Origin: Phycisphaerae bacterium
GTDB lineage: Bacteria; Planctomycetota; Phycisphaerae; Phycisphaerales; SM1A02
Reading direction: 5' to 3'
Assembly: GCA_002709295.1 (NCBI GenBank)
Contig: PAQL01000011.1
Coordinates: forward strand, 1-64,000
DNA length: 64,000 nt
Shown here: positions 34,547-50,589 of the stretch, one piece after another
How positions within the stretch are numbered: position 1 is the stretch's first letter
Layout of the letters: each line of letters opens with the position of its first letter
Position numbers and translations under genes: made by a program
Notes under the pieces: generated by a model
What the model was told of the DNA's origin: nothing
The model's input: the letters and a program-made list of their open reading frames with translations, nothing else
The model's database searches: none

Positions 34547-35206
34547 TCAGTCTCGTCGTCGCCGCGCGCCGAAGCCGCAGACGAGGGCCAGAGAGATCAC
34601 ACCGGGGGTGGGAATCACGGTGTACGAATTGGACATCGGACTCGATGATCCGCTGCCCCATCCGGGCTGGACGTCGTTCGTGGAGAGGAGGTCGATCGCA
34701 GGATCGCTCTCGCCTCCACCCGTCGTGCCGATGTCGAAGTTGAAGGTGTCTCCGAGCTCGAGCCCGAGATCCGCAAGAGCCATCCGGTAGGTGATGCGAT
34801 CACCCTCCCAGTCGACCTCGGGGCTCACACCACCGGTGCCGATCCAGTCGCCGGAGCTGTCCATCCTGTAGGCGCCGCCCCCACCGCCCCCGTCGATCCA
34901 GCTGCCCATGAAGGCGTCGATCCCGGAGGGCGTCGTGATCTGGCGACCCCATGGATTCTCGAGGGACTGATTCTCGAAGCCGACGCGATCGATCAGCATC
35001 ACGTACTTGCCCCAGTCGGCATTCAGATCGAGGAAGTCGATCGACACCACGAGATCGAAATCATCGTTGGTGATCTCGGCCCCGATGATGTCGAGGTTCG
35101 TCAAGCCACCGTCGAATATGTCGGCGGCGTCGTCGGTGTAGTAGTCGGCGGCAGCGAATCCGGTGGTACCGAACACGGCCATGGCGCATGCGACGGATCT
35201 CAGCAT
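34547..35206 (-). CDS. PEP-CTERM-like secreted protein
   Basis: A 219-aa exported protein. AAGGAG precedes the ATG at 35206, followed by a signal peptide (MLRSVACAMAVFGTTGFAAA). The body is Asp/Gly-rich and contains beta-strands and a glycine run (WIDGGGGGGAYRMD). The C-terminus is IPTPGVISLALVCGFGARRRRD: a Pro turn, a hydrophobic stretch and an Arg cluster, the shape of an exosortase sorting signal. I do not recognise the body domain. The longer open frame to 35359 lacks a leader and was not used. Confidence 0.82.
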   Translation of the reverse strand: MLRSVACAMAVFGTTGFAAADYYTDDAADIFDGGLTNLDIIGAEITNDDFDLVVSIDFLDLNADWGKYVMLIDRVGFENQSLENPWGRQITTPSGIDAFMGSWIDGGGGGGAYRMDSSGDWIGTGGVSPEVDWEGDRITYRMALADLGLELGDTFNFDIGTTGGGESDPAIDLLSTNDVQPGWGSGSSSPMSNSYTVIPTPGVISLALVCGFGARRRRD

Positions 35207-35256
35207 GTCTCTGTCTCTCCTTGGGAAATCGACGCCGGCGGGAACCGATGTCGCTG

Positions 35257-35290
35257 GGAAATGCGGGACTGGGTGTGATCCCGCATTTCC
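35257..35290. repeat. 12-bp perfect inverted repeat upstream of PEP-CTERM-like gene
   Basis: Arms GGAAATGCGGGA and its complement are separated by 10 bp. It lies about 50 nt upstream of the start at 35206 and also about 95 nt past the ABC operon's last stop. It could terminate the ABC operon or act in the leader of the downstream gene; there is no T-run. Confidence 0.5.
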
Positions 35291-35383: not shown

Positions 35384-36496
35384 CTAGAGAGGTTCCGGGC
35401 CGAGACGCCGGCCGTTGCTTCCGGACTCGAAGACATGGATCCCCTCCTCGAGGGCACCGAGACGCACTCGGAGGCCCTCGGCCGGAAGATCGACCGCCGA
35501 GCCGCGATGCACGAGTCGCTCCTGCCCGCCACCGTCCACGAGCCTCAGCCAGGCATCCCCTCGATCGCCGTACCGCTCGACCGCATCGATCTCCACGAGC
35601 GGACCCCTTCCGGTTGCTTCGGGCTCGAATCCGATCGATTCCGGACGGAGTCCGAGGACCGCGGGACCACGATGTTCGATCGGAGGAAGCGTGATCTCAC
35701 CGCCCGACGAGACCTTGAAGACCGGTCCGCGATCGCCGTCCACGATTCCGCCCTCGAGCATGTTCATGGCGGGACTGCCGACGAAACTCGCGACGAACCG
35801 GTTCACCGGGCACCGATACACGTCCATCGGGCTGCCGACCTGCTGCACGTGCCCCTCGTGCATCACGACCAGACGATCACCGAGGCTCATCGCCTCCTCC
35901 TGGTCGTGGGTCACGTAGAGCATCGTGGCCTCGAGACGACGGTGGAGCACGCGAAGCTCCGCCCGGGTCTCCACCCGGAGACGGGCGTCGAGGTTCGAGA
36001 GCGGTTCATCGAGCAGGAACACCGCGGGATCGCGGACCAGGGCCCTCCCCACGGCGACCCGCTGCCGCTGACCGCCGGAGAGCTGCCGGGGAAACCGGTC
36101 CAGCAGGGAATCGATCCCGAGGCTTGTCGCGGTCTTCTCCACCCTCCCTGCGATGTCGGCGCGGGAGAGCCCGAGCTTCCGGCGGCGACGCTCCAGACCG
36201 AACGAGAGGTTTCTTCGCACGTCCAGATGCGGGTAGAGGGCGTAGTTCTGAAAGACCATCGCGACGTCGCGATCCCGGGCCGCGACCTCGTTCACCACCC
36301 GGTCCCCGATGCGCAGCGTCCCCTCGGAGATGTCCTCGAGGCCCGCGACCATGCGAAGGGTGGTGCTCTTTCCACAACCGGACGGTCCGACGAGGACGAC
36401 GAACTCGCCGTCCGCGATGTGCAGATCGACGCCTTCCACCGCCCGGACGCCTCCGGGGTAGATCTTTCCGATCGATTCGAGGGTGACGCTCGCCAT
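35384..36496 (-). CDS. MalK/UgpC-type carbohydrate ABC transporter ATPase
   Basis: A 370-aa ATP-binding protein. Walker A is GPSGCGKST (residues 37-45), the Q-loop is VFQNYALYPHLDV, the signature is RQLSGGQRQRVAVGRAL, Walker B is VFLLDEPLSNLD, and the switch His is in LYVTHDQEEA. Residues beyond about 240 form the OB-fold regulatory extension typical of MalK/UgpC/MsmX, which energises sugar import. It is the third gene of the transporter operon, 24 bp after the second permease. No gene follows it on this strand for 177 bp. Confidence 0.92.
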   Translation of the reverse strand: MASVTLESIGKIYPGGVRAVEGVDLHIADGEFVVLVGPSGCGKSTTLRMVAGLEDISEGTLRIGDRVVNEVAARDRDVAMVFQNYALYPHLDVRRNLSFGLERRRRKLGLSRADIAGRVEKTATSLGIDSLLDRFPRQLSGGQRQRVAVGRALVRDPAVFLLDEPLSNLDARLRVETRAELRVLHRRLEATMLYVTHDQEEAMSLGDRLVVMHEGHVQQVGSPMDVYRCPVNRFVASFVGSPAMNMLEGGIVDGDRGPVFKVSSGGEITLPPIEHRGPAVLGLRPESIGFEPEATGRGPLVEIDAVERYGDRGDAWLRLVDGGGQERLVHRGSAVDLPAEGLRVRLGALEEGIHVFESGSNGRRLGPEPL

Positions 36497-36520: not shown

Positions 36521-37396
36521 TCAGCCCTTGACCGCCCCCGCCCCCAGACCCTCGATGAACTGGCGTTGCGCCGCCACGAAGATCAGGACGCACGGGATCA
36601 TCGTCACCACCGAGAGGGCCATGAGCAGGTGCACGTCCTCGAGTCCTCCGAACTGGGTGCGGAAGGCGTTGAGGGCGACCGCGAGCGTGGCCTGGTCCTC
36701 GGAGTGAAGGTAGATGAGGGGCAGGAGGAAGTCGTTCCAGGTGAAGATGAAGGTGAACACCGCGGTGATCGCGGCGACGGGTCTGGTGAGCGGCATGATG
36801 ATCCGCCACCAGGTCTCGAGCCAGCCGCAGCCGTCGAGCCGGGCCGCCTCGAAGAGGGCCTCGGGAAGCTGGGCCACGAACTGCCGGTACATGAAGATGT
36901 GGAAGGCGCTGCCGAAGAAGGCCGGCACGATCAGGGGGAGCAGCGTGTCGACCCATCCGAGCGATCGGAAGAGGATGAAGAGCGGGATCATCGTGACCTG
37001 GGCCGGAAGCATCATCGTCGCAAGCATCAGCACGAAGGTCGGACGGCGTCCCCGGAATCGAAGCCGCGCGAACGCGGTTCCCACCAGACTCGAGGACAGG
37101 ATCGTCCCCACCACCACGAGAACGGTCACCACGATCGAGTTGGACAGGGCGTCGATGAAGCCCCACCAGGGCATGGTTCCCACCTCCTCCATCGCCTGGC
37201 CGTAGTTCGAGAACTGCGGGTCGGTCGGAAAGGCTCCGAAGGGACTGCCCGAGGCGAGTGCCGCTCCGGCCCGCTGCTCGGTCTCGAGACTCAGGGCGAG
37301 CATCCACCAGAGCGGGAAGATCATCGCGACCGCCCCGGCGATCATCGGGAGGTACCACCACCGGCTCGAACGCATGCTGGAGGAGACGGCGCTCAT
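36521..37396 (-). CDS. MalG-type carbohydrate ABC transporter permease
   Basis: A 291-aa integral membrane protein with six predicted helices. The EAA loop reads PEALFEAARLDGCGWLETWWRIIMPLTRP, the coupling-helix motif of type I importer permeases, here close to MalG. RWWYLPMIAGAVAMIFPLWWML is the first helix. The start at 37396 overlaps the stop of the upstream fusion gene (ATGA), so translation is coupled. It pairs with the permease half of that fusion to form the membrane channel. Confidence 0.92.
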   Translation of the reverse strand: MSAVSSSMRSSRWWYLPMIAGAVAMIFPLWWMLALSLETEQRAGAALASGSPFGAFPTDPQFSNYGQAMEEVGTMPWWGFIDALSNSIVVTVLVVVGTILSSSLVGTAFARLRFRGRRPTFVLMLATMMLPAQVTMIPLFILFRSLGWVDTLLPLIVPAFFGSAFHIFMYRQFVAQLPEALFEAARLDGCGWLETWWRIIMPLTRPVAAITAVFTFIFTWNDFLLPLIYLHSEDQATLAVALNAFRTQFGGLEDVHLLMALSVVTMIPCVLIFVAAQRQFIEGLGAGAVKG

Positions 37397-39774
37397 GCTC
37401 TCATCCCCTCGTAGTGGACGCGGCTGCCGCCGACGCGAAGCACCAGCGCGGTGAGCACCAGCACCACGACCAGAAGCAGCCATGCCAGGGCCGACCCGTA
37501 GCCCATCTCGTACCAGTCGAACGCCTGGTTGTAGAGATAGAGGACGTAGAAGCGGGTGTCGTCACCCGGACCGCCGCCGGTCATCACGAACGCCTGGGTG
37601 AAGACCTGGAAGCTTCCGATGATCGCCATGATCCCGTTGAAGAGGATCACCGGCGAGAGCATGGGAAGCGTGACCCGGACGAACCGCGATAACGGCCGGG
37701 CACCGTCGATGTCCGCCGCTTCGAGAACCTCTCTTGGAATGTTCCGGAGTCCGGCGAGATAGATGAGCATCGATCCGCCAACCAGCCAGAGATTCATGAT
37801 CGCGAAGGCCGGCGGTCCGGCCCACGAGGCGTCGGCCTGGAACCACTCGGGGGGTCGAAGTCCGAAGGGTTCGAGCATCGGCTCCAGCAGACTGTTCATG
37901 AGTCCGCCGTCGGAACGGAAGACCCAGGTCCAGAGCACCGCCATTCCGACCCCGGCGAGCACGCTCGGCAGGTACCAGGCCGCACGGAACGCCTCCACGC
38001 CACGAAGCCGGGAATTCAGGATCACCGCCGCGAGGAGGGCGAAGACCTGCCCGAGCGGAACCGCGAGGATCGCGTAGTAGGCCGTGACCTGGAGACTTCT
38101 GATGAACGTGGGATCACCGACCAGGATCTCCCGGTAGTTGCCGATCCCCACGTACTCCGCGGTGTCCAGCGTGTCGATCCCCTTCCAGCGGGCGAGGGAC
38201 AGCAGCAGGGAGAGCACGATCGGTCCCAGCATGAAGAACACGAACCCGAGCACCCAGGGCATCACCATGAACCATCCGGCGCGCTCCTCCCGTCGAGCGA
38301 GATCGGATTCCGGCCGGGTCCGGGCGAGCCAGATCCACTTGAGGAGTCCGAGACCGGCGACCACCGCCGCGATCACCAGACCGATCACCCCCCACGGCAT
38401 CCGGGGGAAACTCCGGGTCGGGGCCAGTGGCGAGGCCTGTCGTGCCGCCCACCATGCATCGAAGGCGGCCACCTGTTCGTCGACGTCGCCTCCGGTGCGC
38501 AACGCCACGTCGAGGGTTCTCTGGAACTGATCCTGGAAGGCGGGGTCGATCGGCCAGGGCGGCACCCGGGCGACGTCGACCGCGTCGAGATAGGCCCGGT
38601 CGTTGCGTGGAGGCACCGACGGATCCACGAAGGCATCGCTCTCCGCGACGGATCGCAGGGTGGGAATCGCGAGGCCCAGGCGTGACTGGGCATCCTGGGA
38701 TTCAGGGCCGGTTAGCCACTTCAGGAGACGCCACGCCTCCTCCGGATGCTCGGATCGGCTCGACATGCTCCAGGCGATGGTGGCGATGACGTTGGCCCGC
38801 GCCTCTCCGGCGGGCAGGGGTGCGAAGTCCCATTCGAAATCCTCGATGCTCCGGTAGCTCGGCACCACCCAGCGACCGAACGGACCGACCATGCCGATGC
38901 GTCCGGACAGGAAGAGCGAGCCCGGATCGATGCCCTCGGCCTCGGCTCGAGCGAGGAAGCCCTCATCGCCGAACCGCCAGTCGCGCAGCTCTCGAAGCGC
39001 CGTCACCGTCCGGTCGTCGGCAAGTCGCAGTTCGTCGAAGTCGCCGCCCTCGCCGACGACGCCCGCATCGCGGGACCAGAGGTACCCGCGAAGGACGAAG
39101 GGCCAGGTCACGAGTTCCGCACCAGTCACGCCTTCCAGGGCATCGATGCGTCGCCCCGCCTCGGCGAAGTCGTCCCAGGTCCAGTCGTCGGTGGGATGCG
39201 TCGCTCCGGCACGGTCGAAGAGATCCCGGTTCCAGTAGATGCCGACGGTGGTGAAGTCCTTGGGGACGCCGTACAAAGGCCCCTCACCCATCCGCCCATC
39301 CCGAAGGCGGAAGGCATCGACCGCAGGGGCGAAGAAGTCGTCGACCGGAAGCGCGTCCGGATCATCGCCTGCCGCCTCGGCATCGAACCAGGCATCCAGC
39401 TTCTCGAGCTGTCCGGCCTCGGCGAACGGTGCCATGCGACCGAAGTCCATGTAGAAGATGTCCGGAGGCTCGCCCGCCGCCATCATGGTCTGCAGCTTGG
39501 TGAAGTACTGGCCGCTGTCCCCGGGGTTGATCCGCTTCACCCGGACCCCGGGATTCCGCTCCTCGAAGGCACGGATCGACGCCTCGACGATGTCGTCCTC
39601 CTGCTGACCGCCACCTCCGGACCAGTGCATCAGCACGAGCTCGACACCACCCTCCCCGTCCTCGGAGAAGAGGCGGCCGACCTCCCGCCAACCCACCCTT
39701 GCAAACGCCCCAAGAACCAGCACCACCGCCACCACCAGCAGACACGCCCGATAGGCGCCGGCAAGGCGTTCCAT
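37393..39774 (-). CDS. Fused solute-binding protein and MalF-type sugar ABC permease
   Basis: A 793-aa fusion. Residues of about 8-27 are a membrane anchor. Residues of about 44-430 are a carbohydrate-binding cluster B solute-binding domain (VELVLMHWSGGG, AFEERNPGVRVKRI, GEPPDIFYMDFG, YGVPKDFTTVGIYWNRDLF, GRIGMVGPFGRW, EEAWRLLKWLTGPESQ). Residues 461-482 are a second helix and 500-793 a six-helix permease with the EAA motif EVLEAADIDGARPLSRF (E685). The topology puts the binding domain in the periplasm and the permease N-terminus in the cytoplasm. In most systems these are separate genes. The start at 39774 follows GGAAGA; the open frame upstream has no homology. It heads the three-gene importer operon. 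Confidence 0.9.
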   Translation of the reverse strand: MERLAGAYRACLLVVAVVLVLGAFARVGWREVGRLFSEDGEGGVELVLMHWSGGGGQQEDDIVEASIRAFEERNPGVRVKRINPGDSGQYFTKLQTMMAAGEPPDIFYMDFGRMAPFAEAGQLEKLDAWFDAEAAGDDPDALPVDDFFAPAVDAFRLRDGRMGEGPLYGVPKDFTTVGIYWNRDLFDRAGATHPTDDWTWDDFAEAGRRIDALEGVTGAELVTWPFVLRGYLWSRDAGVVGEGGDFDELRLADDRTVTALRELRDWRFGDEGFLARAEAEGIDPGSLFLSGRIGMVGPFGRWVVPSYRSIEDFEWDFAPLPAGEARANVIATIAWSMSSRSEHPEEAWRLLKWLTGPESQDAQSRLGLAIPTLRSVAESDAFVDPSVPPRNDRAYLDAVDVARVPPWPIDPAFQDQFQRTLDVALRTGGDVDEQVAAFDAWWAARQASPLAPTRSFPRMPWGVIGLVIAAVVAGLGLLKWIWLARTRPESDLARREERAGWFMVMPWVLGFVFFMLGPIVLSLLLSLARWKGIDTLDTAEYVGIGNYREILVGDPTFIRSLQVTAYYAILAVPLGQVFALLAAVILNSRLRGVEAFRAAWYLPSVLAGVGMAVLWTWVFRSDGGLMNSLLEPMLEPFGLRPPEWFQADASWAGPPAFAIMNLWLVGGSMLIYLAGLRNIPREVLEAADIDGARPLSRFVRVTLPMLSPVILFNGIMAIIGSFQVFTQAFVMTGGGPGDDTRFYVLYLYNQAFDWYEMGYGSALAWLLLVVVLVLTALVLRVGGSRVHYEGMRA

Positions 39775-39825: not shown

Positions 39826-42270
39826 ATGCCGCACCCCGGTCTCCATCGGATCACCGCTGCTCTTGCACTGGTCCCCGTTCTCACCGGCTCCGTTCAGGCC
39901 GGGGCCTCTGACTGGCCGCCCGGCGAGCCTCCGGCGGAGATGCCGCGGGTGCGTCCCGCCCGGACGCCGAGAAGCGTGAGCGCCACCCCGCTTTCGGACG
40001 GACGATGGAGAGTGGTGTTCCGGATCGAAGGGGTCGAGACCGATCGCATGCGGGTCGCCGGTTCGTTCAACGGATGGAACCCGAATGCGGACGAGATGCG
40101 CCGCGACGAGAACGACCGTTGGTCCGGCGTCCTCTTCCTGGAGGACGGCACCCACCACTACAAGTTCGTCGCGGACGGGAACCGATGGCTGCCCGATCCG
40201 GTCAATCTCGATCGGGTCCCCGATGGACATGGCGGCGAGAACACCGTGCTCACGCTGGGCGTGGAGGCCCTCTTCGATCCCTCGAAGGCCGCCCGAGGCG
40301 ACGGTCGGGTCCTCGGCGCCGCCCTCCGGCACGATCCCACGGACTGGCGGGACCTGCAGCCGCTTCCCGACGAGGGGGTCCGCCTTTCCGTCCGGACCCT
40401 CTCGAACGACGTCGAGGGAGTGGAGATCGCCTTCGAGGACGGATCAAGGATTCCGCTCGAATCCAGACACACATCGAACCGATTCGAACGCTGGAGGATC
40501 GATCTCCCGACCGGTCGGGACGGACTCGACTACACGTTCCTCTTCCAGGATGGAGACAACAGGGTGCGTGACCCCCGGACCTACACCCTCGACCGCTCAT
40601 CGGCATCCGACGTCCGAACGCCCGACTGGGCCAAGGACGTCACGTGGTACCAGGTCATGGTCGAGCGATTTCGAGACGGCGATCCCGGCAACGATCCCGA
40701 ACCGGTTCAACCATGGACGGCGCCCTGGTACGAGGCGAGTCCCTGGGAGGGGCGGGACGGGCAGTCCTTCTACAAGTACTTCATCTTCGATCGTCACTAC
40801 GGAGGCGATCTTCAGGGGCTGAAGGAGAAGCTCCCCTACCTCCAGGAACTCGGGGTCGACGCGATCTACCTCAACCCCGTGTTCCAGGCGACCACGCATC
40901 ACAAGTACAACGCGACCGACTACCGTCACATCGACGAGAACTACGGCACCGGCAAGCCGGACTTCCAGGAGACCATCGCCGGTGAGGATCTCGCGGATCC
41001 CGACACCTGGACATGGTCCGCAAGCGACCTCGTCTTCCTCGACTTCCTCAAGGAGGCCAAGAGCCGTGGATTCCGGGTGATCCTCGACGGCGTCTTCAAC
41101 CATGTCGGAACCAACCACCCCGCATTCATCGACGTGAGGGAACGCGGGATCGATTCCCCCTTCGCCGACTGGTTCAGCATTCGCTCCTGGGATCCGTTCG
41201 AATACGACGGCTGGGCGGGTTTCGGTGAACTCCCCGCCTTCCGGAAGAGTCCGGAACACGGGCTCGCCTCGAAGACCCTGCGCGACCACATCTTCGCGGT
41301 CACCCGCAGGTGGATGGATCCGGACGGGGACGGCGACCCCTCCGACGGCATCGACGGATGGCGTCTGGACGTGCCGGAGGAGGTCCCGATGGCGTTCTGG
41401 ATCGAGTGGTGCGAGCTCGTCCGTTCGATCAACCCCGATGCGTACATCGTGGGCGAGATCTGGAAGACGAAGCCGGAGTGGCTCGATGGCCGCACCTTCG
41501 ATGCCGTCATGAACTACCCCTTCGCGGAGATCGCCTTCGCCTGGATCGGCGATCGCGAGAACCGGATCTCCGCCTCGGAGGCGGCTCGTCGTTTCGAGGA
41601 GCACCGCGAGGCCTACCCCGCCGAGGTGACCTACGCCCTGCAGAATCTCGTGGACAGCCACGACACCGATCGACTCGTGTCGAAGCTCCACAATCCCGAC
41701 CGGCCCTTCGACAGCGGGAATCGAGAGCAGGACGACGAGACCTACGACGGATCGAAGCCGCCGCCCGAGGCGTATGCCCGGGCAAGACTGATCGCCATGC
41801 TGCAGATGACGTCTCCCGGCGCCCCGATGATCTACTACGGCGACGAGGTGGGAATGTGGGGTTCGGACGACCCGAACAACCGGAAGCCCATGCTCTGGAA
41901 GGATCTCGAGCCATTCGAGGAGTCCGGCCAGGAGGTGATGGACGAACACCTCGCGTTCTACCGCGATGCGATCGCACTGCGGAAGGCGCACCCCGCGCTC
42001 CGGACCGGCGGCGTCTCGACCATCCTCGTCGACGACGAACAGGACGTCATGGCGTTCGTCAGGGACAACGAGGACGAGGAGGTGCTGGTGGTCATGAATG
42101 CGGGCGAGAACCCCGCATCGATCTCGCTTCCCGTCGCGGCCGACGGATGGACCATGGTCTTCGGAGGCGTCGGAACCCCCGGCTTCCCGGGAGTCGATTC
42201 CGTGGAGGACGATCCGCCGGAGGTCACCGTGCCGGGAATCTCCGCTCGCGTCTGGGTCCGGTCGAAGTGA
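39826..42270 (+). CDS. Exported GH13 alpha-amylase family enzyme
   Basis: An 814-aa enzyme with a signal peptide (ITAALALVPVLTGSVQAGA). Residues of about 60-130 form a CBM48/E-set glycogen-binding domain (VAGSFNGWNPNADEM, HHYKFVADGNRWLPDP). A second beta-domain follows, then a GH13 (beta/alpha)8 barrel: LDGVFNHVG, GWRLDV with nucleophile D515, GEIW with acid/base E544, and DSHDTD with D613. YYGDEVGMWG precedes the C-terminal beta domain. It resembles cyclomaltodextrinase/neopullulanase-type enzymes. It is divergent from the sugar ABC operon and precedes malQ by 19 bp, so it likely produces maltodextrins for import. An in-frame TTG at 39817 is the alternative start. Confidence 0.92.
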   Translation: MPHPGLHRITAALALVPVLTGSVQAGASDWPPGEPPAEMPRVRPARTPRSVSATPLSDGRWRVVFRIEGVETDRMRVAGSFNGWNPNADEMRRDENDRWSGVLFLEDGTHHYKFVADGNRWLPDPVNLDRVPDGHGGENTVLTLGVEALFDPSKAARGDGRVLGAALRHDPTDWRDLQPLPDEGVRLSVRTLSNDVEGVEIAFEDGSRIPLESRHTSNRFERWRIDLPTGRDGLDYTFLFQDGDNRVRDPRTYTLDRSSASDVRTPDWAKDVTWYQVMVERFRDGDPGNDPEPVQPWTAPWYEASPWEGRDGQSFYKYFIFDRHYGGDLQGLKEKLPYLQELGVDAIYLNPVFQATTHHKYNATDYRHIDENYGTGKPDFQETIAGEDLADPDTWTWSASDLVFLDFLKEAKSRGFRVILDGVFNHVGTNHPAFIDVRERGIDSPFADWFSIRSWDPFEYDGWAGFGELPAFRKSPEHGLASKTLRDHIFAVTRRWMDPDGDGDPSDGIDGWRLDVPEEVPMAFWIEWCELVRSINPDAYIVGEIWKTKPEWLDGRTFDAVMNYPFAEIAFAWIGDRENRISASEAARRFEEHREAYPAEVTYALQNLVDSHDTDRLVSKLHNPDRPFDSGNREQDDETYDGSKPPPEAYARARLIAMLQMTSPGAPMIYYGDEVGMWGSDDPNNRKPMLWKDLEPFEESGQEVMDEHLAFYRDAIALRKAHPALRTGGVSTILVDDEQDVMAFVRDNEDEEVLVVMNAGENPASISLPVAADGWTMVFGGVGTPGFPGVDSVEDDPPEVTVPGISARVWVRSK

Positions 42271-42289: not shown

Positions 42290-43774
42290 ATGAAGATCCA
42301 TCCCCTCCTCTCGGAAAGGACCGCAGGCGTCCTCCTTCATCCGACCTCGCTGCCCTCCGTTCATGGAGCATTCGGCATCGGCGACCTCGGTCCCACCGCA
42401 CGTTCGTTCATCGAATGGATGCGGGAGGCGGGACTGACCCGGTGGCAGATGCTTCCCGTCGGGCCGGTCGGCGCCGGCGACTCGCCCTACAGCGCCCTCT
42501 CGAGCTTCGCGATCGAACCCATGCTCGCCTCGGTCGCGGATCTGGTCGAGGACGGTCTGCTCCCTCGATCGGCGATGCGGATGCCCGCGGATGCCCGGAC
42601 CACAGACGATCGTGGACGGGCGTCCTGGCGGAACGTCCGCGCCTGGAAGATCCCGCTTCTGGAGAGGGCCTTCGAGACGTTCTCCCGCACCCGCGGAGCC
42701 GGGGGCCCGAACGGCGGACGCCACACCGGGTTTCGAGAACGCAGCGCCCCGTGGCTCGACCACTGGTGCGACTTCGCAGTCGCCCGGGCGCGACGCCGAC
42801 GCGGGGCGAACGCGATCCAGCTGGCACCCGGGTACCACGCCTTCCTCCAGTTCATCCTCGACCGCCAATGGTCCGCGCTCCGAAGACACGCCCTCGCCAA
42901 CGGCGTCCGTCTGATCGGCGACCTCCCGATCTTCTGCGGGGCGGACAGTGCGGACGTGACGGGCCGACCGGATCTCTTCCGTCTCGATCGTGACGGAAGA
43001 CCGACCGTCCTCACCGGATGCCCGCCCGACGCCTTCACCCGGGACGGGCAGCTCTGGGGACACCCCCACTATCGATGGTCGGCACATCGCCGGGAGCGGT
43101 TCGCATGGTGGCGATCCAGGGTCGCGACGACCCTCGATCGATTCGATCTCGTCCGGATCGATCACTTCATCGGTTTCGCCCGGGCCTACGAGATTCCGGG
43201 AGACGCCCGGAATGCACGGAAGGGACGCTGGGGCCGGACGCCCGGTCGGGAGCTGCTCAGCCACCTGCAGGAGGACCTCGGCACGCCGCCGTTCATCGCG
43301 GAGGATCTCGGCGACGTCACATCCGCGGTGCACCGGCTCCGCGACGACTTCGCCCTGCCGGGGATGCGGATCCTGCAATGGGCGTTCTTCGACCCGAAGG
43401 GCCGCTCCAACGACCTCCCCCACAACCACCCGCGTCATTCGGTGGTCTACCCGGGGACCCACGACAACGACACCGTCGCCGGCTGGTTCCGATCCCTGCC
43501 CGGGGACGTCCGACGCCGGTTCAGGGCGTACTCCGGTGCCGAATCCGCGGCGAACCCCTCCGATGCGATGGTCCGGCTCGCGTTCACCAGTCCCGCCAAC
43601 ACCGCGGTGGTCCAGATGCAGGACATCCTGGGCCTGGGACGCTCCAGTCGGATGAACGTCCCCGGCAAGCCCCGCGGCAACTGGACCTGGCGTCTGCGGC
43701 GATCCGAACTTCCCGCCGGCACCGCGGGGAGGATGTCGGATCTGGTGCTCGCCTCGGGCCGGAGTTCAGGCTGA
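42290..43774 (+). CDS. malQ: 4-alpha-glucanotransferase (amylomaltase)
   Basis: A 494-aa GH77 enzyme. The N-terminus RTAGVLLHPTSLPSVHGAFGIGDLG and the WQMLPVGPVGAGDSPYSALSSFA segment are diagnostic for amylomaltases. The catalytic nucleophile region is FDLVRIDHFIGFARA, the acid FIAEDLGDVT, and the stabilising Asp YPGTHDNDTVAGW. It disproportionates maltodextrins in the cytoplasm, lengthening them for the phosphorylase. The length matches bacterial MalQ of the plant D-enzyme type. The start at 42290 follows the amylase stop by 19 bp; the frame upstream overlaps amylase codons and is not coding. Confidence 0.93.
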   Translation: MKIHPLLSERTAGVLLHPTSLPSVHGAFGIGDLGPTARSFIEWMREAGLTRWQMLPVGPVGAGDSPYSALSSFAIEPMLASVADLVEDGLLPRSAMRMPADARTTDDRGRASWRNVRAWKIPLLERAFETFSRTRGAGGPNGGRHTGFRERSAPWLDHWCDFAVARARRRRGANAIQLAPGYHAFLQFILDRQWSALRRHALANGVRLIGDLPIFCGADSADVTGRPDLFRLDRDGRPTVLTGCPPDAFTRDGQLWGHPHYRWSAHRRERFAWWRSRVATTLDRFDLVRIDHFIGFARAYEIPGDARNARKGRWGRTPGRELLSHLQEDLGTPPFIAEDLGDVTSAVHRLRDDFALPGMRILQWAFFDPKGRSNDLPHNHPRHSVVYPGTHDNDTVAGWFRSLPGDVRRRFRAYSGAESAANPSDAMVRLAFTSPANTAVVQMQDILGLGRSSRMNVPGKPRGNWTWRLRRSELPAGTAGRMSDLVLASGRSSG

Positions 43775-43860: not shown

Positions 43861-45978
43861 ATGACACCCGCCACCCGAACCACCCCCGATCAGATCGTCA
43901 CTCGACTCCTCTCGCTGGCCGAAGACCTCGGCTGGAGCTGGAGAGAGCCCGCTCAACGCCCGTTCGCCATGCTCGACCCGGTGGCGTGGGAGGCGACCAA
44001 TCACGCGCCGATCGAGACCGTGATTCGAACCTCGCACGCCCGCATCGAGGCCGCGGCCTCCGATCCGAGATTCCTCGAGGTGCTCTCCGAGGCCGAGCGG
44101 CTCCTCGCCGCGAGCCGACGGGCACGCCACTGGTTCCCCTCGAACCATCGGGGCAGGGATCGACGACTGAAGGTCGCGTACTACTGTTCCGAGTTCGCGA
44201 TCCATGAATCGATGCAGCAGTATTCGGGCGGACTCGGGGTGCTGGCCGGCGATCACGTCAAGAGCGCCGATCAGCTCGGCGTCCCCCTGGTGGGAGTCGG
44301 CCTGCTCTACCGGCACGGCTACTACCGACAGCAGTTCGAGGCCGACGGACGACAGCGTGTCCTCTACCCGACCTACGACTTCGACCATTATCCGATCGAG
44401 GAGACCGGGGTGTCGGTCGCCTGTCCGATCGGCCGTCGAACGGTCACGGCACGAATCATGCGACTCACGCTCGGCAACACGTCGCTGCTCCTGCTGGACG
44501 CCGACCTGCCCGAGAACCGACCCCAGGATCGTCTTCTGACCGAGGGGCTCTACAAGGGGGAACCCGATCTCCGCATGCGACAGCAGGTGCTGCTGGGGGT
44601 CGGAGGCGCCATGGCGCTCGAGGCGATGGACGAGAAGGTCACCGTCCATCACCTCAACGAGGGACACGCCGCATTCGCCGCGGTGGAACGGGTCGCCCGG
44701 ATCATCGAGGACGGTGGGGATCTCGACTCCGCGATCGAGCAGGTTCGATCCAGCACCGTCTTCACGACCCACACGCCGGTGCCCGCCGGTCACGATCGGT
44801 ACCAACCGAAGGCCGCGGCCGCCGCGATGAGCAGGGTGCTCAAACGAGCCGGACTCGCTCCCCGCGCCTTCGCCGATCTCGGACGGGAACGCCCCGGAGA
44901 TGCCGTTGAGCCCTTGTGCATGACGATCCTCGCCCTGCGACTCGCGGCCCATGTCAACGGGGTCGCGAAACTCCACGGCCGGGTGAGCCGCGAGATGTGG
45001 AGGAACGTCCATCCCGAGGCGAAGAGGATCGATGACGTGCCCATCGGTTCGATCACCAACGGCGTCCATCCCGGCACCTGGATGAATCCCGCCGCGGAGG
45101 AGTTCTGGAGACGGACCATCCGACTTCGTCCCGAGGAGGCGCAACCGACCGAGAAGGCCTGGTCGCGGGCGACCGACGTCGACCCTGCCGAGGCATGGGA
45201 CCTGCGCAACCGGATGCGGTCCGGTCTGGTGAGATTCATCCGGGACCGGGCGGTCCGCCAGGCCACCGAGCGGGGATGCACACCGGACCAGACGCTCGCC
45301 GCGAGTCGGGTGCTTCGCGAGGATGCCCTGACCATCGGCTTCGCCAGACGGTTCGCGACCTACAAGCGGGCTCCGCTGATCTTCCGGGATCGCAGGCGTC
45401 TGGCCGCCATCCTCAACGATCCGGACATGCCCGTGCAGCTCGTGTTCGCGGGGAAGGCTCATCCCCGGGACGAGGGCGGGCAGGCCTTCGCGAAGACGAT
45501 CTTCGAGATGTCACGACGACCCGAATTCCGCGGGAAGGTCGTGATTCTCGAGGAATACGACATGCGGATCGGTCGGGAACTGACGTCGGGATGCGACGTC
45601 TGGCTGAACAACCCCATCCGACCCCACGAAGCCAGCGGCACCAGCGGCATGAAGCCCCCGATGCATCTCGGCATCAACTGCTCGATACTCGACGGCTGGT
45701 GGCCGGAGGGATTCGACGGGCGGAATGGATTCGCGATCGAGGGTGAGCCGAAGCGGGCCGGTGATGCGGCTCGTGATGCCGCGGATGCCGAAGCGCTCTA
45801 CGAGATCCTCGAGAACCGGCTGGTGCCTGAGTTCTACAAGCGGGGACGGGACGGAGTTCCGAAGCGTTGGATGAAGCGGGCGCTTCGAAGCGCCGCGACG
45901 ATCCCCTCCGCCTTCAGCACCCATCGAATGGTGGCGGACTACGTCGAACAGGCCTACCTGCCCGCGAATCGAAGCTGA
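43861..45978 (+). CDS. glgP: Alpha-glucan phosphorylase (short form)
   Basis: A 705-aa GT35 enzyme of the shorter alpha-glucan family, lacking the long N-terminal regulatory region of glycogen phosphorylase. KVAYYCSEFAIHESMQQYSGGLGVLAGD is the conserved N-terminal glycine-rich region, HHLNEGHAAF and FTTHTPVPAGHDRY follow, and the pyridoxal phosphate lysine is K598 in EASGTSGMKPPMHLG. It releases glucose-1-phosphate from alpha-1,4-glucans. The gene follows malQ by 86 bp on the same strand and ends at a bidirectional hairpin, completing the maltodextrin route. Confidence 0.93.
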   Translation: MTPATRTTPDQIVTRLLSLAEDLGWSWREPAQRPFAMLDPVAWEATNHAPIETVIRTSHARIEAAASDPRFLEVLSEAERLLAASRRARHWFPSNHRGRDRRLKVAYYCSEFAIHESMQQYSGGLGVLAGDHVKSADQLGVPLVGVGLLYRHGYYRQQFEADGRQRVLYPTYDFDHYPIEETGVSVACPIGRRTVTARIMRLTLGNTSLLLLDADLPENRPQDRLLTEGLYKGEPDLRMRQQVLLGVGGAMALEAMDEKVTVHHLNEGHAAFAAVERVARIIEDGGDLDSAIEQVRSSTVFTTHTPVPAGHDRYQPKAAAAAMSRVLKRAGLAPRAFADLGRERPGDAVEPLCMTILALRLAAHVNGVAKLHGRVSREMWRNVHPEAKRIDDVPIGSITNGVHPGTWMNPAAEEFWRRTIRLRPEEAQPTEKAWSRATDVDPAEAWDLRNRMRSGLVRFIRDRAVRQATERGCTPDQTLAASRVLREDALTIGFARRFATYKRAPLIFRDRRRLAAILNDPDMPVQLVFAGKAHPRDEGGQAFAKTIFEMSRRPEFRGKVVILEEYDMRIGRELTSGCDVWLNNPIRPHEASGTSGMKPPMHLGINCSILDGWWPEGFDGRNGFAIEGEPKRAGDAARDAADAEALYEILENRLVPEFYKRGRDGVPKRWMKRALRSAATIPSAFSTHRMVADYVEQAYLPANRS

Positions 45979-46078: not shown

Positions 46079-47344
46079 TCACGGCCCGCAGTCGCAGTTC
46101 TGCTCCGCGAGGCCCGCACAAAAGTCATCCCAGATCGCCGAGCAGCACACCTCGTCGATGGCACAGACGATCGATTCGCATACCGAGTCGGAACATCCCG
46201 GCAGGTCGAAGTCGTTGGCGAAGTTGCAGTCGCCGCAACCCTCTTCTCCACCACCGCCCCCGGGGCAGTCGCCCCACACGGCAAGGATGAGACCGACGTC
46301 GGCACCGTTCACCACGCCGTCTCCGTTCATGTCCTCCGAACAGCCGAGGCACTCGCCCCAGACGGCCAGCATGAGACCGAAGTCGGCTCCGTCGACGACG
46401 CCGTCTCCGTTGAAGTCGCCGGAACAGCCGCCGCCACCGCCCCCTTCGGTCTTGACGATCGCATACTGCTCGCCCTCGATGTCGGCGAAGTTCACGAACC
46501 GGGGCTCACCGAGATTGCCACCCGAAAGCAGCGGTCCCATGACCTGGTTCGAGACGAAGTCGTGGCCGCTTCCGTTGACGAACGCGTTGACGAGGATGTC
46601 GTCACCCGGGGTGTGGCCGAGGACGGAGAGCGGAATCGAGATCTCGATGCCGGTGATGACTCCCGCCCCGCCATCGGGCTCGGGCTGATCGCCGCCGGTG
46701 ACTCCGCCCACGTTCGAGTTGTCGATCGCGACCTCGATGAAGTTGTCGGTGATCAGGACGCCGGAGGCGCCGGAGCTTCCCGGCCCGGCGAATCCGAAGC
46801 TTCCGGAATCCCCACCGTCGGTGAGGAGCTCCGCGTAGCTCATGTAGGTGTCGTAGGGCGTGACGCCCTTCTTGTCCGGAGTGCCGGCCCCGCCGGTCAC
46901 GGTGATCCAGAAGTCGGCGGTGAAGTCCGTGTCGAAGGTCAGTCCGGGCTGGACCTCCCCGGTCTTCTTGTCCTCGAATCGACCCATGCGGTTCAAGGCA
47001 CCGAAGTCGACGTCGGGGTTGTTGCCGAGCAGCGGGCTCTGGCCCTCGCCGGGAATCGCATCGAGGAACACCTCGAGCTTGTTGTAGTTGCTCTCGAGAT
47101 TGCCTGCGATCAGGAGATACAGCGTGTCTCCCTCGACCACTCCGTAGAGAAGATCGATCTCGGAGCCGTTGCAGAAGCCCTCTTCTCCCATGTCCGCGTT
47201 TCCGAACTGGGTCTGGACCTGCTGCACGAGCAGTCCGTCTCCGTAGGACTCATCGGCGACGCCGTCGACCACGATGCCCTGACCACAGACGGCGGTCGAC
47301 ATCAACAGGGGCGCGGCAAGCCCGAACAGGTGACGCATCTTCAT
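46079..47344 (-). CDS. Secreted dockerin-like protein with Cys-rich tail
   Basis: A 421-aa exported protein. GGAG precedes the ATG at 47344, and MKMRHLFGLAAPLLMSTAVCGQ is the signal peptide. Residues of about 22-280 form a module also present at the C-terminal half of the neighbouring GH13 protein (shared segments AGNLESNYNKLEVFLDAIP, NRMG, YDTYMSYAELLT, GGAGVITGIEISIPL, LGEPRFVNF). It is followed by two dockerin-like loops (GDFNGDGVVDGADFGLML, DMNGDGVVNGADVGLIL). The tail carries about ten Cys, including VCCSAIWDDFCAGLAEQNC, a pattern seen in planctomycete secreted proteins. It has no catalytic motif I recognise and may bind glucans or a partner of the GH13 enzyme. Confidence 0.83.
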   Translation of the reverse strand: MKMRHLFGLAAPLLMSTAVCGQGIVVDGVADESYGDGLLVQQVQTQFGNADMGEEGFCNGSEIDLLYGVVEGDTLYLLIAGNLESNYNKLEVFLDAIPGEGQSPLLGNNPDVDFGALNRMGRFEDKKTGEVQPGLTFDTDFTADFWITVTGGAGTPDKKGVTPYDTYMSYAELLTDGGDSGSFGFAGPGSSGASGVLITDNFIEVAIDNSNVGGVTGGDQPEPDGGAGVITGIEISIPLSVLGHTPGDDILVNAFVNGSGHDFVSNQVMGPLLSGGNLGEPRFVNFADIEGEQYAIVKTEGGGGGGCSGDFNGDGVVDGADFGLMLAVWGECLGCSEDMNGDGVVNGADVGLILAVWGDCPGGGGGEEGCGDCNFANDFDLPGCSDSVCESIVCAIDEVCCSAIWDDFCAGLAEQNCDCGP

Positions 47345-47360
47345 CTCGCATTCTCCATGA

Positions 47361-47383
47361 ACGACCGTTTGGAACACGGTCGT
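47361..47383 (-). repeat. 8-bp perfect inverted repeat in the leader
   Basis: Arms ACGACCGT and ACGGTCGT are separated by 7 bp and end 17 nt before the ATG at 47344. It would form a hairpin next to the ribosome binding site, or be an operator. Confidence 0.5.
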
Positions 47384-47499: not shown

Positions 47500-50406
47500 T
47501 CAGGGGCACTGACCCCAGACCGCCAGCAGCAGTCCGACGTCCGCCCCATTGACCACCCCGTCCCGGTTGAGATCGGGTTCACACCTCTTGCAGGGACCCC
47601 AGGCGGCCAGGAGCGAACCGAAGTCCGCACCATTGACCACTCCGTCCCCGTTGAAGTCGCCCGGACACGGTGGGATCTCGGCTTCGACGACGACCACGTG
47701 CTGCAGGCCGGGAATCTCCTCGAAGTCGACGACCCGGGGTTCCCCGAGGTTGGGCGAACCACCAAGCGGCCCGATGACCTGGTTGGAGAGGTAGTCGTGG
47801 TTGGAACCGTTCACGAAGGCCGCGACCGAGATGCCGTTTCCATCGGTGTTCCCGAGCACCAGCAGCGGAATCGCCAGCTCGATGCCGGTGACCACGCCCG
47901 ATCCGTCGTCGATGCCGTCCCCACCGGAGACCCCGGCGGTGTTGGAGTTGTTGATCGACGCGATGATGCCGTTGCCGGCGAAGATCGCCAGTCCGGCTCC
48001 TGATCCTCCCGGTCCCGCGAATCCCCAGCCACCCTCGTCACCGCCACCGGTGAGCAGGGGCGACCAGTTGATGAAGGTGTCGTAGCTGACCCCGAACTCG
48101 CCTCCCCCGGTGAAGTCGATCCAGAAGTCGGGGGCGAACCCCTCGTCGAAGCGGAGTCCCGGCTCGTCTCCATCGCCGGGCCCTCCCATCCGGTTGAGCC
48201 CCCCGAACTTCACGTCGGGATTGTCGTCGCGCAGCCGGTTCTGCCCGGCGTCGGGAATCGAGTCGATGAAGATGTCGAGCTTGTTGTAGTTGCTCTCGAG
48301 GTTGCCGGCGAAGAACAGGTAGAGGACGCCGGACTCGACCCTGGCCGAGAAGGAGTCGAGTTCGGAACCGTTCGCGTAGTTCACGAGCCCGAGATCGTTG
48401 TCGCCGAAGCCGGTCGAGGTGTCCTGGATCACAAGAGGATCGCCGTAGAGCTCGTCCCGCTCGCCGTCGACGAGGATCGGACCGTTCTGGTCGCCGCCGC
48501 CACCACCACCGTCATCGGGCCGCTCCTGGGAGAAGATCAGGGCGGTGTACGGCGGGATGTCGAGCTGGGCGCTGAAACCCATCCCGTCCCAGGCCACGGC
48601 GTCGGCCTCGACCTGGATCGGACCGCCCCCGGTGAAGGCCGGGTCGTAGCCCGTGGCGTTGGAGTTGAAGACGCAGTACCAGGTGCCTCCGCTCGGGAAG
48701 CCGATTCGATATGAACCGCGGTACTCGCTCTTCCAGTTCGTGACCACCACCACGTCGTCTCCCGCCCCACCCTGGTCGTAGCGGTGCCAGGCTCCGATCT
48801 TGTCGGAGTCGTTGAGGTGATGGAAGTTGGTGTTGTTTCCGGTGAGGCCGCGGCTGGCACCTCCTCGATTCCTGCGAAGCGAGATGAGGTCGCAGTAGAG
48901 CTGGAAGATCCCGTTGAACGAGTCCTTTCGACCCCAGTCCATGGGGGCGGCGTCGGTCCATGTGCCGTCCTCGAAGAACTCCTGCCCCTGGAAGATCATC
49001 GGAATGCCCGGGGACGTGAACACCACCGATGCCGCAAGGGTGGATCGCTTCTTCGCCTCCCAGCTGTCCGCGTTGGCGGGCCAGATCACCTCCGGAAGTC
49101 GAGGCTGGTTGGCCGCCTCGTCGTGACTCTCGGTGAAGACCACTCTCTGGGTGGCCTGACCGTTGAAGGACTTCAGCACCGAGTCTCGAAGCTCGAACAT
49201 GCTGCGATCCTGGTCATCGACGATCGAGGCCAGCGCCCGCACCGGGTGAAGGAACACGCCGTCCCACTGACTCTCGAATCCCGCACCACCTTCGCCGACG
49301 CTGCGGCTCATCCACTCGTTGTCGCCCCAGTCCTCGGCGATCGTGATCTTCCAGGGCTGGGTCGCGTCGATGGACTCGTTGATCCACTGCATCAGGGACC
49401 AGCCTTCGGGGATCTCGACCCCGGCCTCGGGAACGCCGCGAATGTACTTCGTGGCGTCGAAACGGAGACCGTCGAGGCGGAACTCGTCGAGCCAGAGCAT
49501 CGCGTTGTCGTGAATGTAGGTCCTGACCTCGCCTCGTCCGAAGTCGGGACGAGGTCCCCATGGAGTGTCGGCCTTGAGGTCGTCGTTGTAGAAGAAGATG
49601 CCCCCGTAGCCGTTCTGGCTCCATCCGTCGTACTGCCAGAGATCGAGATCGCTCGGGCCCCAGTGGTTGTAGAGCACGTCGAGAATCACCGCGATCCCGC
49701 GGGCGTGGCACGCATCCACGAAGGCCTTCAGCTGGTCGGGTCCCCCGTAGGAGCTCTCGACCGACCATGGGTAGGCGAGGTTGTAACCCCAGTTGATGTC
49801 TCCGGTGAACTCGTTGATCGGCATCAGCTCGACGCAGTTGACCCCGAGCTCCATGAGGTGGTCGAGGTTGTCGATGCAGTCCTGGAAGCCGGCGGGAACC
49901 GGATCGCCCGGAAGCGCTCCGTAGGTCCCGATGTGCATCTCGTAGATGACCAGTTCGTTCCAGGGCGGCATGGTGAAACCGTCGGCCTGGAACTGGTATG
50001 CATCCTTGTCGTAGACCAGCGGATCCCCCACCGAGTTGGTGAGCCTTCGCGCCCAGGGATCCCGGCGCCAGAGTTCCTGACCGTTGTTGCGGATGACGAA
50101 CTTGTAGCGGGCGCCCTGTCCCACGTAGGGGACGTCGATCGACCACCAGCCGTCGCCTTCACCGGTCAGGAAGTGGGTGTTGGGGTTGAACGAATTGAAA
50201 GAACCCGCGACCGAGACGCTGTCCGCATTGGGCGCCCAGGTCCGGAAGGTCACCCCGTTGCCGTCTGCATCGTCGTAGAGCGTCGCACCGACGCCCGGTC
50301 GCGAGGACTGGGCCTGCACCATGGAGATCGGAGCGATGGCGGTGACGAGGAGGAGCCGGAGACCCCACTTCGTGATGCTGCTGGTGACCGAACGCGCCCG
50401 TTGCAT
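47500..50406 (-). CDS. Secreted GH13 branching-enzyme-like glucanase with dockerin-like pair
   Basis: A 968-aa exported enzyme. GGAG precedes 50406 and the signal peptide is WGLRLLLVTAIAPISMVQAQ. A CBM48/E-set domain (TFRTWAPNADSVSVAGSFN, ARYKFVIRNN) precedes a GH13 barrel: LDVLYNHWGPSD, GLRFDATK with D317, AEDWG with E358, and FTESHDE with D429. The order of domains matches branching enzymes and malto-oligosyltrehalose hydrolases, though an extracellular alpha-amylase is equally plausible. Residues of about 650-910 are the module shared with the adjacent dockerin protein. Two dockerin-like loops end it (GDFNGDGVVNGADFGSLL, DLNRDGVVNGADVGLLL). Confidence 0.9.
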   Translation of the reverse strand: MQRARSVTSSITKWGLRLLLVTAIAPISMVQAQSSRPGVGATLYDDADGNGVTFRTWAPNADSVSVAGSFNSFNPNTHFLTGEGDGWWSIDVPYVGQGARYKFVIRNNGQELWRRDPWARRLTNSVGDPLVYDKDAYQFQADGFTMPPWNELVIYEMHIGTYGALPGDPVPAGFQDCIDNLDHLMELGVNCVELMPINEFTGDINWGYNLAYPWSVESSYGGPDQLKAFVDACHARGIAVILDVLYNHWGPSDLDLWQYDGWSQNGYGGIFFYNDDLKADTPWGPRPDFGRGEVRTYIHDNAMLWLDEFRLDGLRFDATKYIRGVPEAGVEIPEGWSLMQWINESIDATQPWKITIAEDWGDNEWMSRSVGEGGAGFESQWDGVFLHPVRALASIVDDQDRSMFELRDSVLKSFNGQATQRVVFTESHDEAANQPRLPEVIWPANADSWEAKKRSTLAASVVFTSPGIPMIFQGQEFFEDGTWTDAAPMDWGRKDSFNGIFQLYCDLISLRRNRGGASRGLTGNNTNFHHLNDSDKIGAWHRYDQGGAGDDVVVVTNWKSEYRGSYRIGFPSGGTWYCVFNSNATGYDPAFTGGGPIQVEADAVAWDGMGFSAQLDIPPYTALIFSQERPDDGGGGGGDQNGPILVDGERDELYGDPLVIQDTSTGFGDNDLGLVNYANGSELDSFSARVESGVLYLFFAGNLESNYNKLDIFIDSIPDAGQNRLRDDNPDVKFGGLNRMGGPGDGDEPGLRFDEGFAPDFWIDFTGGGEFGVSYDTFINWSPLLTGGGDEGGWGFAGPGGSGAGLAIFAGNGIIASINNSNTAGVSGGDGIDDGSGVVTGIELAIPLLVLGNTDGNGISVAAFVNGSNHDYLSNQVIGPLGGSPNLGEPRVVDFEEIPGLQHVVVVEAEIPPCPGDFNGDGVVNGADFGSLLAAWGPCKRCEPDLNRDGVVNGADVGLLLAVWGQCP

Positions 50407-50589
50407 GCCTGCTCCCGGAGAGTGCTGGAAATCCCGACCCGAGTCTAGCACCGAAAAAGGGGAAGTCGAAGGATCAGATCCCCTCTTGGAGCGCCGAAAA
50501 GAGGACCACCAATCCCCCGAAGGAGGATGGGTGGCCGGACAATCGACGATCTTGAAGTCCGGGAATCGGTTCCCGGCCCGCAGAACCGA

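Follow-up and report, generated by a model that had tools for sequence, protein, structure and literature searches.

In the maltose importer of Escherichia coli, MalE is a separate periplasmic protein and MalF carries a large P2 loop; among importers in which a solute-binding domain (SBD) belongs to the transporter itself, GlnPQ is a homodimer, and a fusion of MalE to MalF is said to come from Bdellovibrio. That fusion was described, going by the title of the report, as a maltose/maltodextrin ATP-binding cassette (ABC) transporter (Licht et al. 2019, Res Microbiol 170:1-12), and GlnPQ and OpuA are presented, in the passages available (PMC11065425 for OpuA), as SBD-fused type I importers with the SBD covalently joined to the transmembrane domain. 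According to the same passages, OpuA attaches its SBD by a linker of 11 residues and a transmembrane anchoring sequence that is not conserved (PMC11065425). The principle of fusing an SBD to a transporter is thus already known. Here, a further case is analysed in a planctomycete, Phycisphaerae bacterium (assembly GCA_002709295.1), where a gene at 37393-39774 on the minus strand joins an SBD to a MalF-type permease; the stretch of DNA under study, positions 1 to 64,000 of contig PAQL01000011.1 (64,000 nucleotides), is hereafter called the window.

The locus shares with the system of Licht et al. a single SBD fused to MalF, a likeness drawn from the title of that report and not from its sequence. 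The short linker and unconserved membrane anchor of OpuA, as far as the available text describes them, resemble the linking helix of the window's fusion, which has an additional conserved N-terminal helix. GlnPQ (glutamine/glutamate/asparagine) and OpuA (glycine betaine) have at least two SBDs per complex and contain the SBD-bearing subunit twice, whereas the window's system would have one family-1 sugar SBD on a MalF/MalG heterodimer, with a distinct MalG of 291 amino acids without SBD as the putative partner. The MalF/UgpA-type core, MalG/UgpE-type partner and MalK/UgpC-type ATPase are the same as in E. coli MalEFGK2 and UgpABEC; a P2 loop like that of E. coli MalF would not fit between the helices predicted for the permease core of the fusion. 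No paper on planctomycete fusions of a solute-binding protein (SBP) and a permease was recognised among the open-access papers listed, and none is described in the part of PMC4807772 that was consulted.

One gene for the binding domain and the permease

The fusion is a single unbroken frame of 793 codons with an ATG start, and Pfam places SBP_bac_1 at residues 61-360 (E 1.1e-41) and BPD_transp_1 at residues 596-778 (E 7.7e-12). The SBD is of the family-1 type, with both PF01547 and PF13416 over cut-off, and the permease half is matched at residues 488-779 by the PDB permeases 7cad and 8ja7. The sequence-only reading had described one gene of this length with a helix, an SBD, a second helix and a MalF-type permease with its EAA motif, and frame, Pfam, motif and structural model agree with that description and confirm a genuine single gene with the following parts.

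37393 to 39774, minus strand: SBD-MalF fusion gene, 793 amino acids; open frame with SBP_bac_1 and BPD_transp_1 within one protein, recurring full-length in the order
39667 to 39771, minus strand: N-terminal helix, residues 2-36, putative membrane anchor; predicted continuous helix, hydropathy segment 10-24, conservation of V27 and R30, cleavage possible
38434 to 39648, minus strand: SBD, residues about 43-447; Pfam, and Z 43.7 to 5f7v over 381 residues
38320 to 38394, minus strand: linking transmembrane helix, residues 461-485, from the SBD to the permease start; predicted helix, hydrophobic and unconserved in 42 fusions, W461 invariant
37426 to 38277, minus strand: MalF/UgpA-type permease core, residues 500-783; PF00528, NF007852 (UgpA) and PDB permeases
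37663 to 37722, minus strand: EAA loop of the fusion, residues 685-704, EAADIDGARPLSRFVRVTLP; motif reading

The permease is a relative, not a member, of the NCBIfam equivalogs for UgpA (NF007852: E 2.5e-27, 96.5 bits, under the 335-bit cut-off) and MalF (NF008232: 54.6 bits, under the 392-bit cut-off), and no PDB chain spanned both halves of the fusion, either among the 53 sequences of one search or among the best 60 of 64 in another.

A fusion of this kind might be an artefact of one genome, from a false join in the assembly or the loss of a stop codon, but no evidence in favour of this was found. Between residues 430 and 500, where the sequence-only reading had placed a conceivable frameshift or join, five relatives (62-86% identical) aligned across the junction with 0-2 unaligned codons of 70, and their differences peaked at codon position 3 (narrowly in locus L006: 30/29/33); amino-acid changes outnumbered synonymous codons in four of the five, as expected for an unconserved linking helix. 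The full-length single frame also recurs in 54 other genomes of the order, and all 62 rows of the clade that holds the window on the permease tree described below are fused, as are 60 of 60 on the enlarged tree. Frameshift, join and lost stop were ruled out by the unbroken junction together with this recurrence, which leaves an artefact vanishingly improbable. Partial fusions in six genomes of the order (G073, G079, G096, G130, G160 and G187) are cut by contig ends.

Two AlphaFold2 models of the fusion were obtained, the first from an alignment with 18 fusions (predicted local distance difference test, pLDDT, 77.7; predicted template modelling score, pTM, 0.73) and the second from a 52-sequence alignment (mean pLDDT 92.3, pTM 0.89). 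Both give a helix at 2-36, an SBD from its first strand at 44, a helix at 461-485 and permease helices from 491. Two points weigh against reading too much into the second model: only 17 of its 52 alignment rows are fusions that cover the SBD too, the other 35 being permease-only rows from stand-alone MalF relatives, and the model contains the fusion alone, without MalG and MalK. The SBD is complete, since VIA-align superposed model residues 42-449 on cycloalternan-binding 5f7v, the best structural match among those listed, with Z 43.7 and a root-mean-square deviation (rmsd) of 2.6 over 381 residues. Maltose-binding 6dtq (Z 39.8, rmsd 2.9, 374 residues aligned), 3uor and 8art are all among the 50 listed matches; these lists are dominated by the SBD and hardly test the permease half.

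Hydropathy averaged over 42 aligned fusions showed two segments outside the permease, at residues 10-24 and 465-478, and the two differ in conservation. A conserved stretch lies at the end of the first, with V27 in 98% and R30 in 100% of the fusions, while in the linking segment (464-483) no residue is more than 40% conserved, although W442 and W461 preceding it are invariant. That the N-terminal helix is conserved and the linking helix is not is the less expected pattern. Residues 484-498, which follow the linking helix, are arginine-rich, and this fits the expectation for a cytoplasmic loop. MalF-type permeases have six helices, and the linking helix would accordingly take the chain from an SBD in the periplasm to the point in the cytoplasm where an ordinary six-helix MalF begins. 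The predicted topology of the fusion agrees with the earlier proposal that the SBD is held in the periplasm above the channel.

Whether the N-terminal helix stays in place was weighed separately. If it were a cleaved signal peptide, only the linking helix would hold the SBD, as is the case in SBD fusions with a single tether. Residues 23-25 of the fusion read A-F-A, a possible signal-peptidase site that would allow cleavage and so counts against an anchor; A-x-A occurs at this site in 16 of the 42 fusions, a looser small-residue rule is passed by 25 of the 42, and the uncharged run, of 12-20 residues in fusions and 7-25 in separate SBPs, does not tell anchor from signal peptide by its length. 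A fusion from Hydrogenedentes (L024), judged by eye and by Pfam, also resembles a signal peptide followed by SBD, helix and MalF. On the other hand, A-x-A is absent at the site in 26 of the 42 fusions, including L003, which is 79% identical to the window's fusion; V27 and R30, just past the candidate cleavage site, are nearly invariant, and the predicted helix continues unbroken through residue 36. A lipobox pattern was found in the N-terminal region of 1 of 42 fusions against 41 of 62 separate SBPs. The A-x-A counts and the conservation favour an anchor over a signal peptide, so that the helix is likely retained uncleaved, with cleavage the unlikely but still weighty alternative.

Distribution and origin of the fusion

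The homologue search for the same domain order, proposed in the sequence-only reading, showed that the fusion is shared by many relatives in the order and the phylum. A search of named genome contigs gave 160 related stretches, from which 79 loci were retained. Both halves lie in one frame in 19 of these, namely 17 in planctomycete-titled records, L010 in a Chitinophaga-titled record and L024 in Hydrogenedentes, while 55 loci have separate SBP and permease open reading frames (ORFs), all in records titled with other phyla. The remaining loci either reach the contig end inside the gene (L020, L021) or have no permease match (L057, L059, L079). A full-length single-frame fusion was present in 55 of 201 genomes of the window's order (38 of them in its family) and in 26 of 392 genomes across the phylum, its own genome included in both; full length meant a query start of at most 47 in the order search and at most 68 in the phylum search, with an end of at least 789 in each. 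Both counts are lower bounds that exclude cut or partly aligned fusions, and few candidates were scored per genome; no match was reported for 66 of the 201 genomes in the order and 212 of the 392 across the phylum. Unfused MalF relatives often occur in these genomes as well, at about 30-49% identity, and profiles revealed at least 12 further unfused SBP and MalF neighbours in loci of the phylum.

On a quick tree of the permease part only (139 rows), the window falls within a starred clade whose 62 rows are all fused; further fused clades of 11 and 7 rows and the single fused rows L134, L148 and L024 lie elsewhere, on a tree whose backbone is weak and whose groups were named after it was seen. 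A 165-row quick tree was made by including another 26 rows, some of them from unfused relatives in the phylum. On it, every row is fused in the two sets that hold the window, of 53 rows (support 100) and 60 rows (support 91), and the next set, of 69 rows (support 93), includes L208, labelled unfused but with a permease that begins at the contig end. No close relative with separate ORFs emerged on this tree. An unfused SBP and MalF pair in the window's own order (L194), in which the SBP gene has a stop and the MalF gene a start of its own and the permease is 49% identical, was considered as such a relative and rejected, as its nearest rows on the 165-row tree are Caldilineaceae and not the window's clade. 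The SBP of this pair (L194:1402-3718, minus strand) has a long hydrophobic N-terminal stretch with no lipobox seen, and may be membrane-anchored too.

The fused or unfused state changes 7 times on the 139-row tree, 6 times on the same tree relabelled and 8 times on the 165-row tree. For relabelling, L149 and L153 were set to fused after inspection, and L178, cut by its contig, was left out of the relabelled 139-row and the 165-row counts; the 165-row count is inexact, as the contig-cut permeases L204, L208 and L210 are still labelled unfused. Holding fused clades together on the 139-row tree was not rejected for the 62 and 11 rows (p 0.429), the 62 and 7 rows (p 0.662) or all 80 rows (approximately unbiased, AU, p 0.374), so that the data are compatible with one origin for the three main fused clades.

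The two other fused clades differ from the window's in their MalG. In the 11-row clade, MalG has an insert of 267-396 amino acids in 8 of 8 readable loci (L146, L155, L158, L160, L161, L162, L170 and L171), and in the 7-row clade one of 341-506 amino acids in 6 of 6 loci (L149-L153 and L177), in each case between the first helix and the rest of the protein. Inserts in the window's clade are at most 20 amino acids in the loci measured, and L134, outside the three clades, has 98. These counts exclude L141 (which overlaps L157) and L147, both with no MalG match, L159 (contig-cut) and L178 (unmeasured; MalG ORF of 667 amino acids). In eight insert-bearing MalG proteins Pfam gave no trusted domain, five of them matching the permease family only or one weak unrelated model. 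A PF02449 enzyme was considered and set aside, since the matches (L150 and L153 over cut-off, L178 under) cover short stretches and were read as a short repeated motif. One guess is that the MalG insert forms a second sugar-holding surface above the channel. A tentative picture, which I hold to be possible rather than probable, is that Planctomycetota rebuilt part of their CUT1 importers with a captive, doubly anchored SBD and that in two other clades MalG also gained a large extracytoplasmic domain, giving both halves an outer domain.

Several side observations concern these relatives. One group of MalG inserts holds short repeats like KYGSIEALNAAHG. In the fusions of L155, L158, L159, L161 and L162 the match to the SBD profile is split by a gap of about 110-137 residues, and their SBDs seem to hold an inserted segment. 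L172, L173, L174 and L175 contain ORFs that strongly match the SBD profile (332-350 bits) with no permease match in the fetched stretch, possibly free relatives of the captive SBD. The Hydrogenedentes fusion (L024:5437-8268), with a seemingly cleavable signal peptide by eye, falls in none of the three fused clades of planctomycetes on the tree, and the L010 locus, titled Chitinophaga pinensis, is very close to planctomycete L009 and probably mislabelled or misbinned.

Operon partners and predicted substrate

The fusion is followed by two genes for the rest of an importer and lies next to a divergent set of genes for alpha-glucan metabolism.

36521 to 37396, minus strand: MalG-type partner permease, 291 amino acids, no extra domain; PF00528, EAA at residue 183, insert of 10 amino acids against the family profile (L001)
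35384 to 36496, minus strand: MalK/UgpC-type ATPase, 370 amino acids; PF00005, PF17912, Walker A, LSGGQ, Walker B, D-loop and His switch
39826 to 42270, plus strand: alpha-amylase family protein, divergent, with an apparent signal peptide; PF00128 at 1.9e-52 (searched from 7 codons later), start read from the sequence
42290 to 43774, plus strand: 4-alpha-glucanotransferase (MalQ, GH77); PF02446 at 2.4e-131, NF011080 over cut-off
43861 to 45978, plus strand: carbohydrate (glycogen/maltodextrin) phosphorylase; PF00343 at 1e-18, PF11897 at 2.9e-20

The stop codon of the fusion overlaps the MalG start (ATGA), and the MalK gene follows 24 bases after MalG. EAA loops are present in both permeases (from residue 685 in the fusion), with PF00528 over cut-off in both, and the ATPase matches PF00005 and PF17912 over cut-off, with TOBE_2 just under (20.1 of 21 bits). 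The family-1 SBD, two different EAA permeases and a MalK-type ATPase with a C-terminal OB-fold region would together place the system in the CUT1 class, with ATP-driven uptake of di- or oligosaccharides as its predicted activity. A scan for promoters gave no sigma-70-like site (0.5 expected), and terminator-like sites numbered 2 against 1.9 expected.

The importer is quite probably a CUT1 (MalFGK-type) system for alpha-glucan oligosaccharides (maltodextrin) with its SBD built into MalF, a substrate proposed because the divergent amylase, 4-alpha-glucanotransferase and phosphorylase genes adjoin it. The secreted amylase would cut starch-like glucans outside the inner membrane. The SBD would bind the oligosaccharide while the N-terminal and linking helices, each connected to it by about 7-14 residues, keep the domain above the channel. 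Once closed, the SBD would engage MalF/MalG, ATP binding by the MalK dimer would open SBD and channel to let the sugar into the cytoplasm, and glucanotransferase and phosphorylase would process it there.

Gene context was compared over the window's clade, in 61 loci besides the window (49 in its subclade and 12 more distant), with counts taken only where the flank suffices. In the subclade, MalG is co-directional in 44 of 45 testable loci, the amylase is divergent in 38 of 42, MalQ was found in 9 of 15 and MalK in 9 of 14; all 12 more distant loci have MalG. Several results weigh against this reading: MalQ was not found in 6 of the 15 subclade loci nor MalK in 5 of the 14, the amylase was found in 0 of 8 testable more distant loci, the SBD has its best sequence match in the PDB with 6rjy, the arabino-oligosaccharide-binding AbnE, and its structural matches include binders of beta-glucan and other sugars. 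The substrate call therefore rests on the gene neighbours. It would be wrong if the importer carried another oligosaccharide (e.g., arabino- or beta-glucan) with the alpha-glucan genes merely incidental, as the AbnE match and the amylase-free distant loci could suggest; given the glucanotransferase and phosphorylase genes beside the fusion and the recurrence of amylase and MalQ in the subclade, this is improbable, and alpha-glucan oligosaccharides are preferred.

A free SBP encoded elsewhere could also help or replace the fused SBD. Four further SBP-domain regions occur elsewhere in the window's genome, one of which (G000:C28; L143:2729-5934) holds canonical separate SBP, MalF and MalG genes. 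This SBP has its own permeases and, adjoining them, a MalK homologue 55% identical. No free SBP ORF was found by profile in the 61 clade loci, many with only about 1.5 kb of flank, and none by Pfam elsewhere on the window's contig. Assistance from a diffusible SBP is considered very unlikely, and the fused SBD would serve its transporter by itself, as the sequence-only reading had suggested.

Consequences of a captive binding domain

Canonical MalFGK2 already docks one MalE, and the idea in the sequence-only reading that the fusion makes a single ligand site per transporter obligatory thus loses its novelty. What the fusion brings is permanent 1:1 tethering and the loss of SBP excess, not a change in the number of sites. 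The clades described above supply many natural sugar importers whose SBP and transporter seem to be fixed at a ratio of 1:1. In the ABC-uptake model of Norris et al. (PMC8168909), according to the parts consulted, half-saturation depends on the abundance of the binding protein, and slow diffusion of this protein limits uptake. A captive SBD should abolish both the affinity gain and the diffusion limit of this model, so that fusion importers would allow a direct test of the trade-off between affinity and diffusion, and of whether the transport cycle ever requires SBP release. The unfused G000:C28 system in the same genome offers a natural control for the fusion.

Further genes of the window lie on either side of the locus. 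Downstream of the ATPase gene, an ORF at 34547-35257 (minus strand) has no Pfam match and ends in a short hydrophobic stretch and arginines, which resemble a PEP-CTERM-type sorting signal. Beyond the phosphorylase gene, two secreted-looking proteins, one of them of the amylase family, are encoded at 46079-47377 and 47500-50451 (minus strand) and have C-terminal GDFNGDGVVNGAD-type repeats; a dockerin model matches the 46079-47377 protein just under cut-off.

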